Origin: Gammaproteobacteria bacterium
Lineage (GTDB): Bacteria; Pseudomonadota; Gammaproteobacteria; JAADGQ01
Length of the DNA: 49,713 nucleotides
NCBI GenBank assembly: GCA_015490755.1
Contig: WFXF01000044.1
Coordinates: 1 to 49,713 of the forward strand
Reading direction: 5' to 3'
How positions within the stretch are numbered: position 1 is the stretch's first letter; each line of letters begins with the position of its first letter. Positions 487 through 20,293 of the stretch are shown one piece after another. Under the pieces are notes generated by a model. It was not told where the DNA came from. It ran no database searches and saw only the letters and a list, made by a program, of their open reading frames with translations. Position numbers and translations under genes: made by a program.

Positions 487-3351
487 ATGTTGCAACCCAT
501 ACCAAAAGAGCTGGAAAACCTGATTTCCAATCTATGGCAATCATTTTGTAGTGCGGCTTCAACTGAAGACCCGTCCCTCAATCCCGATTGTTTACCATTA
601 CAAACATTACACACCGTTTGGGCAGGCAGTGACTTTGTGGCTCAAAGCTGTATTCGTCACCCAAATATGCTTTTTGAACTGGTGAGCAGCAATGACTTAA
701 ATATAACCTATGAAAAAGACAGGTATAGCGCATCTCTTTCAAAGTTACTTTCAGAGGTAACAGAAGAGACCGTACTGCTTGATACATTACGACATTTTCG
801 TCGCAGAGAGATGGTGCGTATCGCCTGGCGCGATCTCACTCAACTGGCTTCACTCAATGAAACCCTCTCCGATCTTTCTGCACTTGCTGATGCCTGTGTT
901 GATGAATCATTAACACTGCTTCATCAGTGGCAATCAAAAATTTACGGAACACCTGTAGATGAAAATTTAGTGCCGCAAAAAATGGTTGTCATCGCCATGG
1001 GTAAGCTTGGCGCTCATGAGCTGAATTTTTCTTCTGATATTGATCTGATTTTTGCCTATCCATCACAAGGCCAAACAAGCGGCGCATCCAAAAGCTTGAG
1101 TAATGGTGAATATTTTACCAAGCTTGGCCAGCGTCTTATCAATGCTTTGTCATCCTTAACGCCTCAGGGTTATGTATTTCGTACCGACATACGCTTGCGT
1201 CCATTTGGTGACAGTGGGCCAGTTGCCATGAATTTTGATGCAATGGAAGCCTACTATCAAACACATGGCCGAGACTGGGAGCGTTACGCCTGGGTTAAAG
1301 CCCGAATCATATCTGGTGATTCCACATCCGGTGAACAATTACTGAAAATTATGCGCCCCTTTGTCTATCGTCGCTATCTTGATTTCAGTGCTTTTAGAAC
1401 GCTGCGGGAGCTCAAGCAAAGTATTAACCATGATGCTGAACGTCACAAAAAAGAGAACAACATCAAACTCGGGCGGGGTGGGATTCGTGAAGTCGAATTT
1501 ATTGGTCAGGCTTTTCAATTGATTCGTGGTGGCCGAGAGCCCGAGCTTCGAGAACGCAGTATTTTAAAAGTTTTATCCTTGTTGGGGGAGAAGAATTACC
1601 TGCCTAAATACGTTGTTGATATTTTGTCTGAAGCCTATATCTTTTTACGCCGTACTGAAAACCGTCTGCAAATGATGGAAGATAAACAGACTCATACGCT
1701 TCCTGAAGAGAGATTGAGCCGTGAACGACTGGCTTTTTCTATGGGTTTTTCCAGTTGGCTGACATTTTCAGCGGCGCTTGAGCAGCATTTAAACCAGGTT
1801 CAAAGTCACTTCGAACAAGTTTTTGATGCTCCTCAAGCGGATCACACCACACAATTTTCCAAAATCTGGCAAGCCAGCGATCATTTAGAGCATGCGGTCA
1901 CGCTGCTCACTCAGTCGGGTTATGACAAGAGCGCGATTGAAATTGCTCAAGTGCTCACACAATTTCATCAATCATCACGTTATGCAAATCTGACAAAAAC
2001 TGTTAAAGAGCGCCTTGACCGGCTCATGCCTTTGCTTCTGGGTGCGATACTGAACCAAAGCTCATCAATCAAACCATTGCAGCGGCTTATCCATTTGATC
2101 GAAACCATGACCCGGCGCAGCGCATACTTTTCACTTCTCACTGAAAATCCAATGGCACTATCCCAATTAGTGCAGTTAAATCTGGCTTGTCCCTGGATTA
2201 CCGAGCAATTAACGCGCTCTCCTTTGTTGCTGGATGAACTGCTTGACCCAAGAGTGCTTTATTCACCACTCGACAAAACCAGTATGGAGGTTGAGCTGGC
2301 TTGCCAACTTCAACAAGTTGAAGATGATGATCTTGAGCATCAAATGGATCTGTTGCGCCAATTTAAAAATACCCATGTTTTGCGTGTAGCTGCTACAGAT
2401 ATTATGGGGAAATTACCGCTCATGAATGTCAGTGACTATTTAACAGCGATTGCTGAAACTGTTTTGCAACAAGCGCTGTGGCTCGCGTTAAATCGCCTGA
2501 CTAAAAAGCACGGTATGCCGCAAAGATACAAAACAGACAGTGATGTTAGTTTTGCCATTATTGGTTACGGTAAACTGGGAGGAATTGAGTTGGGCTATGG
2601 CTCTGATCTGGATCTTATCTTTTTGTATGATGATGGTCACAGCGAGCAGCAAACCACAGGCCCTAAACCAATCAGTCATGCCCAGTTTTTCACCCGATTG
2701 GGGCAAAGTATTATTCATATCCTGAATACACTGACTTCATCAGGAATACTCTATGAAGTTGATATGCGTTTACGTCCTAATGGCTCTTCCGGTCTATTGG
2801 TGAGTAGTCTGGATGCTTTTTCAACCTATCAACACTCATCGGCATGGACATGGGAGCACCAGGCGCTGATTCGGGCGCGATTTATTGCTGGTAATAACCA
2901 CAATGATCTTTGTGACAAATTTAAAGCAGTTCGGCAAAAAGTGCTTTCAACAAAAAGGTCATCCAAAGATCTAAAACAAGAGATCAAAAAGATGCGGGAT
3001 CAAATGCGCCAGGCACTCGCAAGTAAGCAGCAGGGGATATTTGACATTAAACATGCTGCAGGTGGCATCGTCGATATTGAATTTTTAGTGCAATACGGCG
3101 TACTTTCCAATGCGCACAAGCACCCCGAACTGCTTCGTTGGACAGATCATTTATGCTTGCTTGAAGCGCTTACTAAAATATGTTTTTTTACAGATGAAGA
3201 GTTTAAACAGCTGAGTCATGCTTATCGCAGCTATCGTCATGCGGGTCATCATAAAGTACTTCAGGGAGAAAAGGTTTTGGTTGATAGCCAAAGATTCAAA
3301 GAAGAAAGAGCTAAGGTTAAGGTAATTTGGCAAAAACTAATTGATAAATAA
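487..3351 (+). CDS. glnE: Glutamine synthetase adenylyltransferase / adenylyl-removing enzyme
   Basis: This bifunctional nucleotidyltransferase adenylylates and deadenylylates glutamine synthetase in response to PII (GlnB) and glutamine, so it sets nitrogen assimilation activity. The 954 residues match the usual length. Two nucleotidyltransferase cores are visible. The N-terminal deadenylylating core has GKLGAHELNFSSDIDLIF (about 172-189) and then GRGGIREVEFI. The C-terminal adenylylating core has GYGKLGGIELGYGSDLDLIF (about 690-712). The ATG at 487 follows an AAAGGAGAA ribosome site. No partner gene is adjacent. The downstream gltX is 315 bp away and probably has its own promoter. Confidence 0.97.
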   Translation: MLQPIPKELENLISNLWQSFCSAASTEDPSLNPDCLPLQTLHTVWAGSDFVAQSCIRHPNMLFELVSSNDLNITYEKDRYSASLSKLLSEVTEETVLLDTLRHFRRREMVRIAWRDLTQLASLNETLSDLSALADACVDESLTLLHQWQSKIYGTPVDENLVPQKMVVIAMGKLGAHELNFSSDIDLIFAYPSQGQTSGASKSLSNGEYFTKLGQRLINALSSLTPQGYVFRTDIRLRPFGDSGPVAMNFDAMEAYYQTHGRDWERYAWVKARIISGDSTSGEQLLKIMRPFVYRRYLDFSAFRTLRELKQSINHDAERHKKENNIKLGRGGIREVEFIGQAFQLIRGGREPELRERSILKVLSLLGEKNYLPKYVVDILSEAYIFLRRTENRLQMMEDKQTHTLPEERLSRERLAFSMGFSSWLTFSAALEQHLNQVQSHFEQVFDAPQADHTTQFSKIWQASDHLEHAVTLLTQSGYDKSAIEIAQVLTQFHQSSRYANLTKTVKERLDRLMPLLLGAILNQSSSIKPLQRLIHLIETMTRRSAYFSLLTENPMALSQLVQLNLACPWITEQLTRSPLLLDELLDPRVLYSPLDKTSMEVELACQLQQVEDDDLEHQMDLLRQFKNTHVLRVAATDIMGKLPLMNVSDYLTAIAETVLQQALWLALNRLTKKHGMPQRYKTDSDVSFAIIGYGKLGGIELGYGSDLDLIFLYDDGHSEQQTTGPKPISHAQFFTRLGQSIIHILNTLTSSGILYEVDMRLRPNGSSGLLVSSLDAFSTYQHSSAWTWEHQALIRARFIAGNNHNDLCDKFKAVRQKVLSTKRSSKDLKQEIKKMRDQMRQALASKQQGIFDIKHAAGGIVDIEFLVQYGVLSNAHKHPELLRWTDHLCLLEALTKICFFTDEEFKQLSHAYRSYRHAGHHKVLQGEKVLVDSQRFKEERAKVKVIWQKLIDK

Positions 3352-16638: not shown

Positions 16639-16860
16639 TCATTTTGAAAAATGAGCATCTAGTTTATTCAGCACATCCAACCCATGGGCTCTATTACCAC
16701 GAGCCGCCAGAGCGCGAAACCGTACTTCACTATCAAACTCTGCAAGTGCTTGAGTTGAAAGCTCTTCAATGAGCTTATTTATGCTTACATGCCGATGTTG
16801 TGCTAACGCTTTCAATCGGCTGTGTTTGTCATCAGTCATGCGAATAGTTAAAGTTGCCAT
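16639..16860 (-). CDS. Ribbon-helix-helix (CopG/Arc-like) antitoxin, module 1
   Basis: 73 residues. The N-terminal strand MATLTIRMTDDKHSRLKALA and the helix with SINKLIEELSTQAL are a ribbon-helix-helix DNA-binding fold. The C-terminal tail (VRFRALAARGNRAHGLDVLN) would bind the toxin. It begins 1 nt after the PIN toxin stop, so the toxin gene comes first and the antitoxin second, the reverse of most vapBC loci. The RA-RG-R-HxLxVL tail pattern recurs in the antitoxin at 18310. Confidence 0.85.
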   Translation of the reverse strand: MATLTIRMTDDKHSRLKALAQHRHVSINKLIEELSTQALAEFDSEVRFRALAARGNRAHGLDVLNKLDAHFSK

Positions 16861-16861
16861 A

Positions 16862-17287
16862 TCATTTATCCTTCAAAAACTCTTCAGGCGTTACAATCCG
16901 TAAACCTGGAAATTTCAATTCTGAATTTTTTAAATCACCAATGTTATTGGTAATAATATGTGTAGCATTACCAGCTAATGCCAGTTCAATCAAAAAATTA
17001 TCACCTTCATCTATAAGGTTTGGTCGCCACAAATAGTAAATTGGAACCCAGCGACAAACTGAGTAAAGGGCGTTACATAGCTCCCTTATATCATCGTTAG
17101 TTAGTGGACATAAGTTCAATACTTTCTTTCTTTGGCTTACGTCCTCATATTCAGAAAATAGAGTATTACTGATTAGAGGGTTACATTTACCTTGCAAGCA
17201 TTTCCTCAATATTTCTCTGCTTGGTCCACGGGAACCTATCAGGGCACTAATAATCACGCTTGTATCAACGACTACTGTATAAACCAT
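16862..17287 (-). CDS. PIN-domain toxin (COG1569 type), module 1
   Basis: 141 residues of a PIN-domain RNase of the family annotated as 'putative toxin-antitoxin system toxin component, PIN family'. The first catalytic Asp is Asp8 in VVVDTSVIISAL. The central Glu lies in LFSEYEDV, and the distal acidic residues lie in LIDEGDNFLIELA and NNIGDLKN. YYLWRPNL is shared with the second module. It is expected to cleave RNA with Mg2+ when free of antitoxin; the target is unknown. Confidence 0.87.
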   Translation of the reverse strand: MVYTVVVDTSVIISALIGSRGPSREILRKCLQGKCNPLISNTLFSEYEDVSQRKKVLNLCPLTNDDIRELCNALYSVCRWVPIYYLWRPNLIDEGDNFLIELALAGNATHIITNNIGDLKNSELKFPGLRIVTPEEFLKDK

Positions 17288-18266: not shown

Positions 18267-18309
18267 AATTCTTGTTTAAAACGAGCAGTGACACAAAATA
18301 TTTACACTC

Positions 18310-18540
18310 TCAATCAATACGGTCAAAGTCTTCAGCGGGAACGTCAGCTACCCTGTCAAGAACAGACAAGGCATGTTCTCGTGAACCTCTTTTCGCTCTT
18401 TCTTGCAGATACTCCTCTGTATGCAATGCTGATAGCTTTTCAGCGATCGCATTTACAATAAACTGGTTTATGGATGTATCTCCCTTTACCTGCATAATCT
18501 CTTTTTTATAATAATCAGGAATTCTTAATGCAAAATTCAT
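18310..18540 (-). CDS. Ribbon-helix-helix antitoxin, module 2
   Basis: 76 residues. MNFALRIPDYYKKEIMQVK and SINQFIVNAIAEKLSAL give a ribbon-helix-helix domain; the acidic tail (REHALSVLDRVADVPAEDF) is the likely toxin-binding arm. It overlaps the upstream toxin stop by four bases, so the toxin is again translated first. The tail pattern (RAKRG-R-H-L-VLDR) is shared with module 1, indicating the same TA family. Confidence 0.85.
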   Translation of the reverse strand: MNFALRIPDYYKKEIMQVKGDTSINQFIVNAIAEKLSALHTEEYLQERAKRGSREHALSVLDRVADVPAEDFDRID

Positions 18541-18971
18541 CTTGGTTCACCTCTAATATCAAGAAACTGCTTGGGTGTAACAGGTTGTATGGAAAAAGAC
18601 TCTTTAACATTTCTAAAATCTTTAAGATTATGAGTAACAATGTACTCGGCATTACCATTGAAAGCAGTCTCTAATATCATGTCATCTTTGAAATCAGATA
18701 AAAAAGGTCGCCAAAGATAGTAAATTTTTTGATGTAAGGAAATAGAACAAATATCATCAACAAACAGACGGACTTCACTTTTCGTTAAATGGCTATACCT
18801 TGCTATATGCTCACTTCTCGTTAATACATCTTCAAGCTCAACGACCAAAGGAACTGATACAATGTTAATAATTTTATCGTACTGAAATAGCCACCGAATT
18901 AACTTATATGATGCACCTTGTTTCGAGTAAAGAGCGGATAGAATAACATTTGTGTCTATAACAATATTCAT
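18537..18971 (-). CDS. PIN-domain toxin (COG1569 type), module 2
   Basis: 144 residues. Asp6 in IVIDTNVILSAL starts the PIN domain, followed by VVELEDVL, the shared YYLWRPFL block, FKDDMILETA and THNLKDFRN, and PVTPKQFLD at the end. All acidic positions expected of an active PIN nuclease are present. It resembles the toxin at 16862 but is clearly diverged, so these are paralogous modules or separate acquisitions rather than a recent duplication. Bases 18972-19067 hold no gene. Confidence 0.87.
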   Translation of the reverse strand: MNIVIDTNVILSALYSKQGASYKLIRWLFQYDKIINIVSVPLVVELEDVLTRSEHIARYSHLTKSEVRLFVDDICSISLHQKIYYLWRPFLSDFKDDMILETAFNGNAEYIVTHNLKDFRNVKESFSIQPVTPKQFLDIRGEPR

Positions 18972-19067
18972 TTTTGATATTGTATATGATATTGCCTACT
19001 GATGAAAGTTATGTTAATTTTATATCGCTAGAAGAGTTAAAATCAAAACATAGAAAATGATCATTAA

Positions 19068-19083
19068 GGAACGTTCACGAAAT
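19068..19083. repeat. Solitary 16-bp copy of the mobile-element end at the moeA-like start
   Basis: GGAACGTTCACGAAAT here is identical to the left end of the palindromic element at 20069, in the same orientation, 1001 bp away. Here it supplies both the AGGA that could serve as ribosome site and the first two bases of the ATG (19082) of the MoeA-like gene. No matching inverted end is visible nearby, so it is a solo terminus or the outer end of a composite unit. Confidence 0.8.
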
Positions 19084-20086
19084 GACTGAAGAAAATCCAC
19101 TGCTGGATGCACAAAAAAAATTTATAGATGCTGTTCCATTTCGTGCAATGGCCCGCGAGAAAAAAGCACTTGAGCAAACGTTGGGTATGACGCTTTATAC
19201 TGATTTGAAATCTCCGGAAAATTCGCCCTCGTATCATCGTGCGATTGTCGAAGGTTTTTTGGTCAACACAGAAGATACACGTGAAGCTTCTGAAGAAAAT
19301 CCTGTCTCTTTTTCTATAGTGGGGGATGTGAGTCCGGGGGATGAATTTTGCCCAGGTTTTTTGAGTGGTCAGGCCGTGTCAGTGGCAACGGGCAGTATTA
19401 TTCTTGAGGGTGATTACTCTGTTGTTCGCATGTGGGAAGCGAAACGTGACGGTAATAACATCACAATTACCCGCCCTTTCCCGCCTCGATTTTTTATTGA
19501 AGAAGAGGGCTGTGAAATCAAACAGGGCAGTGTTGTGATTGAGGCCGGTGCGGTGTTGTCACCCGCTTATTTAGGTGCTGCGGCGAGTTTGGGGCTGGAA
19601 ACTTTAGAGGTTGCATCGCCTCCTAAGGTGACTGTTTTTTCATCAGGTGATGAGGTGATTCATCACTCTGAGGAGATGCGGCCCGGTGCGATACGTGATT
19701 GTAACTCGGTGATGTTAAGTGCTGCTGTGATGGAAGCGGGGGGCGTTCCTGATTTTGCGGGCATTATGAGCGATGATTTTGATGGTTTCGTTCGTAAAGC
19801 ACGAAATGCGTTAAAAACTTCGGATATGTTATTAATTTCGGGTGGAACAGCGGTGGATGGACGGGATTTTATCTCTGACCTGATTCGTGAGCTGGGTGAT
19901 TTGCTGGTGGATGGTGTGCAGATGCGTTCAGGTCGCCCTTTGATTATGGGAGTTTCTGATGGCAAACCCATTGTTTGTGTTGCGGGTTATCCGCCTGAAG
20001 CGTTGCGTGGCTTTGAGCTGTTTGGCGTGATGGCAATAAAGCAATTGTTAGGACGAAACTCTAAATTAGGAACGTTCACGAAATAA
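19082..20086 (+). CDS. MoeA-like molybdopterin-binding protein, short, lacking the C-terminal domain
   Basis: 334 residues, against about 400 for MoeA, which inserts molybdate into molybdopterin. The MoCF core is recognisable: VFSSGDEV (about 185-192), the LLISGGTAVDGRDF block (251-263) and GKPIVCVAGYPPEALRGFEL. The classic MDGYAV loop reads VEGFLV and GVSVG reads GTAVDG, so key acidic positions are altered. The protein ends just after the helix that follows AGYPPE, so the C-terminal beta-barrel domain is absent. Its last codons (LGTFTK-stop) lie in a mobile-element end. It may be a truncated or specialised paralogue; cofactor synthesis activity is doubtful. Confidence 0.8.
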   Translation: MTEENPLLDAQKKFIDAVPFRAMAREKKALEQTLGMTLYTDLKSPENSPSYHRAIVEGFLVNTEDTREASEENPVSFSIVGDVSPGDEFCPGFLSGQAVSVATGSIILEGDYSVVRMWEAKRDGNNITITRPFPPRFFIEEEGCEIKQGSVVIEAGAVLSPAYLGAAASLGLETLEVASPPKVTVFSSGDEVIHHSEEMRPGAIRDCNSVMLSAAVMEAGGVPDFAGIMSDDFDGFVRKARNALKTSDMLLISGGTAVDGRDFISDLIRELGDLLVDGVQMRSGRPLIMGVSDGKPIVCVAGYPPEALRGFELFGVMAIKQLLGRNSKLGTFTK

Positions 20087-20227
20087 CTTCTGCACTCTGA
20101 CTTGCTCTTTTGCTTCGGCTCAAACGATCTCAAGAGGCGCATAGGCCAGCTATGCGCCTCTTGAGATCGTTTGAGCCGAAGCAAAATTTCTACGCCATAG
20201 TTGCAGAAGTTATTCCGTGCACGTTCC
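20069..20227. mobile_element. MITE-like palindromic element with a 37-bp perfect hairpin
   Basis: The ends GGAACGTTCACGAAATAACT and its near-inverse (20203-20227, reading ...TTCCGTGCACGTTCC) form terminal inverted repeats of about 26 bp with two or three differences. TTA flanks both sides as a possible target duplication. The centre is a perfect inverted repeat, arms 20108-20144 and 20150-20186, with the loop GCCAG. There is no transposase, so it is a non-autonomous element. It overlaps the last codons of the MoeA-like gene, and the hairpin may terminate transcription between it and convergent gspN. Confidence 0.85.
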
Positions 20228-20293
20228 TTAGAGAGCAGCTGAGTATACGCTCTGAACAATCATTAATAGTTATTCAGGGCTGTTTTTTATCAT

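Follow-up and report, generated by a model that had tools for sequence, protein, structure and literature searches.

The short moeA-like gene contained in the window (the whole stretch of 49,713 nucleotides analysed here) is read as a conserved MoeA paralogue, naturally devoid of domain IV, that was struck twice, in independent events, by members of a single MITE family, a reading to which a probability of about 0.8 can be given. It draws on a repeat family, a target duplication, the length of the empty site, conserved gene ends, synteny and the match of the repeat ends to those of an ISAzo13 IS, all of which were observed. The features of the locus are collected in Table 1.

Table 1. Features at and around the moeA-like gene (positions in the window)
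Feature	Position	Strand	Basis
PIN toxin/antitoxin segment, in place of the congener's 106-bp intergenic region	18269..19078	.	BLAST alignment interrupted after 18268 and resumed at 19079; PIN_3
TAA beside the solo end, matching the target sequence of the family	19065..19067	+	TTA/TAA 3-bp duplications in most intact copies
Probable solo MITE end with AAGGA ribosome site	19068..19083	+	Exact match to 21 other genome ends
Short MoeA-like gene of 334 aa, limited to domains I-III	19082..20086	+	Pfam, orthologue lengths, AlphaFold
Left target duplication TTA, also last native codon (Leu)	20066..20068	+	Congener comparison, flank survey
Complete 159-bp palindromic MITE	20069..20227	.	Folded energy -108.9 kcal/mol, z -16.8
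GTFTK tail and TAA stop encoded by the MITE, in place of native ESS and stop	20069..20086	+	Flank joining, congener
MITE inner hairpin, 37-nt perfect arms, 5-nt loop	20108..20186	.	Lies between the convergent moeA-like gene and gspN
Right target duplication TTA	20228..20230	+	Congener comparison, flank survey

The starting point was the original prediction, made from the letters of the DNA, that the same 16-bp sequence lies at the ATG and at the stop of the gene. Both copies of GGAACGTTCACGAAAT were recovered, exact, at 19068-19083 and 20069-20084, in direct orientation and spaced by 1001 bp, and a third one, on the minus strand and with 2 mismatches (20212-20227), corresponds to the opposite end of this palindromic MITE. 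The window holds 3 matches with up to 3 mismatches, versus a shuffle mean of 0.39. Further copies, which it had been proposed to look for, were abundant in the whole genome (2.63 Mb in 94 contigs): 22 exact, 7 with one mismatch and 28 with two, 57 in all, versus 3 matches with up to 2 mismatches for a control in which the 16-mer pattern was read backwards. The 16-mer is, therefore, the end of a repeat family and not the common unrelated motif that had been contemplated as a threat to the prediction. Nearly all the ends inspected in context were found in 159-bp palindromic MITEs, in shortened forms of 57-69 bp or in single-ended fragments, and several contigs of the assembly terminate inside MITE copies.

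At the stop codon, the proposal that the copy found there forms the left terminus of a palindromic MITE proved correct: the element has terminal inverted repeats with 27-nt arms (93% complementary), it is short and multi-copy (dozens of matches in the genome) and lacks transposase coding capacity, as corresponds to a MITE, and it is bordered by a TTA/TTA duplication of the fixed 3-bp length. Likewise, the final residues of the gene do come from the mobile element, as had been claimed, with the last five codons and the stop being MITE sequence. When the MITE and one TTA are removed, the product ends in ...LLGRNSKLESS* and has 332 aa, and the orthologue of the congener, which ends in ...LLGKNFELENI*, also has 332 aa. 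Judging by these joined flanks, which restore ...LESS*, the insertion exchanged three native residues (ESS) for five (GTFTK). The MITE transposed into a TTA situated three codons before the native stop, with duplication of that TTA, and ESS gave way to GTFTK because the MITE end reads GGA ACG TTC ACG AAA TAA in that frame. The extreme C-terminus so acquired is predicted to be disordered (pLDDT 44 for the last block in AlphaFold).

Such a location is not exceptional within the family, since 5 of the 19 intact MITE copies checked sit exactly at the stop codon of an ORF or supply it (C4, C29b, C30, C44 and C73, with ORFs called mechanically), as expected from a target that is TTA or TAA. Copies at or supplying a stop include L002, L008, L017 and L023, on contigs C4, C29, C73 and C30. 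The flanks of the intact copies in the genome are mostly TTA/TTA or TAA/TAA, with one GTA/GTA. In the congener, directly past the stop of the moeA-like gene (L119, around position 3090), the sequence TTA-GGAACGG-TTA was noticed, a possible footprint of a lost MITE which, at 7 bp, is too short to judge.

At the start codon of the gene, the comparison with the congener shows that the BLAST blocks end at the start of lpxL, and homology restarts, by both BLAST and local alignment, exactly at 19079, the G of GAAATG, where the congener reads GAAATGAC. The 11 bases located 5' of this position are those of a MITE terminus and have TAA before them, and the alignment of the upstream region with the leader of the congener was no better than that of shuffles. 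Strictly foreign in this copy is only GGAACGTTCAC (19068-19078), as GAAAT (19079-19083) is also native in the start region of the congener. The notion that the ribosome site of the gene derives from a mobile element is probably right, with the nuance that GAAAT is shared by the MITE end and the native start region. The sequence of the MITE is CGAAATAACTT and that of the native start is TGAAATGACC; given that both contain GAAAT, a microhomology deletion would yield the join that is observed. Probably, a second MITE copy had been inserted, at another time, at the TAA between lpxL and moeA, and recombination of its GAAAT with the GAAATG of the native start then deleted all of it but the terminal 16 bp. 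Such a deletion would have fused the MITE end to the start codon, creating a new leader, TTAAGGAACGTTCACGAAATG, with the ribosome site kept. Single-ended remnants adjoining TTA or TAA occur elsewhere in the genome (for instance, C89:12192, C15:6540, C60 and C76).

The 5' copy is in all likelihood of MITE origin. It spans 16 bp, 5 of which are native, and its GGA is placed as the GGA of the congener, so that about 8 bp carry the argument, and some doubt remains because only about eight bases were free to match. One may suppose that only the 3' MITE is real and that the start-region sequence, GGAACGTTCACGAAATG, is a fortuitous match composed of a native ribosome site GGA and a native GAAATG, with the eight bases in between happening to fit. 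The presence of a GGA at the corresponding position of the congener, in addition to GAAATGAC, leaves few bases to explain, and the 3 control matches indicate that chance agreement with two mismatches is not zero. However, those same 3 matches at up to 2 mismatches lead to an estimate of about 0.001-0.003 occurrences per genome for the exact 16-mer; the copy abuts TAA, a target of the family, and has the terminal GG outermost, as true ends do; and the other exact copies inspected in context are MITE ends or MITE fragments. A chance match is, thus, considered unlikely, and a remnant of a second MITE is the reading retained for the 5' copy.

The original prediction had offered two explanations for the position of the repeats, and neither was borne out. 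According to one of them, a full-length MoeA was trimmed on both sides by the insertions and so deprived of its C-terminal domain, and MoeA_C (PF03454, domain IV) is indeed missing here while the other MoeA of the genome (contig C85) has it. However, all 14 aligned orthologues, 54-85% identical, have about 330-337 aa with a common start and end, a length also seen in orthologues without any repeat; the five proteins scanned by Pfam (that of the window and four orthologues) all lack MoeA_C; and the sequence 3' of the MITE aligns with the intergenic region of the congener towards gspN, with no remnant of domain IV. Nothing was trimmed, therefore, and this explanation can be practically discarded. 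The other one regards the gene as the cargo of a composite unit running from 19068 (plus) to 20227 (minus), whose outermost ends are indeed inverted and 1160 bp apart. Against this, the gene occupies the corresponding locus in the congener, in the order lpxL-moeA-gspN, without either repeat, which is the comparison with a relative lacking the flanking ends that had been proposed as a check, and the sequences bordering the supposed unit, TAA on one side and TTA on the other, are no duplication, whereas the inner MITE has its own TTA/TTA. The gene, thus, is not cargo. In a composite transposon the outer flanks would be duplicated and the unit would be absent in relatives, and neither was found; moreover, the members of the gene family are chromosomal, next to neighbours that vary, and no second copy of the whole unit was detected, all of which makes a cargo unit very improbable. 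The segment between lpxL and the gene was also considered as a mobile PIN/antitoxin unit carrying the MITE end, and this was rejected after no second copy was found in the genome or in 26 relatives. Two related PIN toxin/antitoxin pairs (16639-17287 and 18310-18971) lie one on each side of lpxL, with PIN proteins 37% identical, and both are absent at these places in the congener.

Regarding the membership of the gene in the MoeA family, MoeA_N and MoCF_biosynth were found by Pfam and domains I-III are present, with the C-terminal domain IV lacking. Given that the orthologues all have about 330-337 aa and that the scanned ones are devoid of domain IV, the short form is ancestral to this MoeA subfamily. 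Orthologues at 54-85% identity were found in 6 of the 55 relatives searched, and a second collection provided nine contigs, two of which carry the label Nitrospirota, with members that are 55-67% identical. As modelled by AlphaFold (mean pLDDT 89.9), the protein has a MoeA fold, with low confidence only at the extreme C-terminus, and a fold search matched E. coli MoeA, Cnx1E and gephyrin E, with query-normalised TM values of about 0.75-0.82 for most structures of the MoeA family. Two conserved motifs, MDGYA and PGKP, which we take to be the active-site motifs of MoeA, are not kept in the subfamily, the former being changed to VEGFL or VEGFV (Asp to Glu) and the latter to SGRP or SGKP. These changes suggest an altered or lost Mo insertase activity. 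Neighbours that might hint at the function of the protein were not conserved across the subfamily, being shared only between close genomes, and no paper on a domain-IV-less MoeA was found in the literature searched. This subfamily of paralogues, with its changed motifs and its presence in Gammaproteobacteria and in the two Nitrospirota-labelled contigs, has perhaps been repurposed. In the window, the gene is likely intact, with only three native residues lost, and would still be expressed; promoter and terminator scans of the region stayed at shuffle level.

A clue to how the MITE family moves was derived from a survey of the class, in which the end motif GGAACGNNCACGNAATAACTT occurred in many copies in 7 of 369 genomes sampled, with almost no control matches. 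In the near-complete gammaproteobacterial genome G249, ends with the motif bound a 1327-bp IS with TTA duplications and an open frame of 411 aa that matches PF07592, the ISAzo13 transposase, at 5e-105; of the first 21 bases at the ends of this IS, 18-19 are identical to those of the MITE. In another genome (G180, contig C185), degraded transposase fragments were found just inside such an end. The search for a transposase using the 16-bp end, also among the checks proposed, therefore gave a candidate in a different genome and not in that of the window: no ISAzo13 (PF07592) transposase turned up in the genome of the window, in the congener or in the family member G002 by the same search that works in G249. 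The 159-bp element itself lacks the PF07592 DDE transposase, and the relationship to ISAzo13 is proposed solely from the terminal sequences and the target duplication. Because the family has the ISAzo13 ends and the 3-bp TTA/TAA duplications, it would most likely have been mobilised in trans by an ISAzo13-family transposase, not found in the genome now and either lost or unsampled. IS5/DDE_Tnp_1 was discarded as the mobilising family, with one sub-threshold match in the genome. As for other observations, G249 contains three ISAzo13-family IS copies (L133:2058-3384, L134 and L135), whose ends match MITEs in several gammaproteobacterial genomes, together with non-autonomous derivatives of 182-356 bp, and in the congener (L118:1364-2118) two frames near a MITE end resemble, by eye, an IS1-type transposase. 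No description of ISAzo13-derived MITEs was found in the literature searched, and the family, related to ISAzo13, seems not to have been described before.

Overall, the case is genuine but ordinary, with a natural gene struck at each end, independently, by one MITE family, and the understanding of MoeA is unchanged by it. Its value is that of a small, clean example of how a preference for TTA/TAA targets lets a MITE land on stop codons at almost no cost for the protein, and of how a leader can be provided by a leftover MITE end; in addition, it connects a MITE end that is widespread in Gammaproteobacteria with the ISAzo13 family. A MITE insertion at TAA generates TAAGGA, a Shine-Dalgarno-like core that faces inward, and the TTA/TAA target is often a stop codon. 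It is tempting to view the ends of the family as ready-made translation signals that repeatedly rebuild gene ends, with a single MITE end having become here the working ribosome site of a host gene after the microhomology deletion, and this idea is advanced tentatively, as a possibility somewhat less than even.

When compared with known systems, the element shares with ISAzo13-family IS the terminal GGAACG..CACG.AATAACTT and the 3-bp TTA/TAA duplications seen in the 1327-bp IS, but it is a palindrome of 159 bp without transposase, in a genome where none was found. The gene, in turn, has the MoeA_N and MoCF domains and the fold of the MoeA/Mo insertase family, which includes the repurposed member Glp (PMC11733289), whereas the subfamily described here lacks domain IV, has Glu for the Asp of MDGYA and SGRP or SGKP for PGKP. 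A MITE that supplies the end of a gene is already known, as MITEAba12, inserted in ACX60_04650, provides the terminal residues and the stop codon of that gene (PMC6382973). The same occurs here, although MITEAba12 has other ends and a 9-bp duplication, and in the present case just three native residues were lost.
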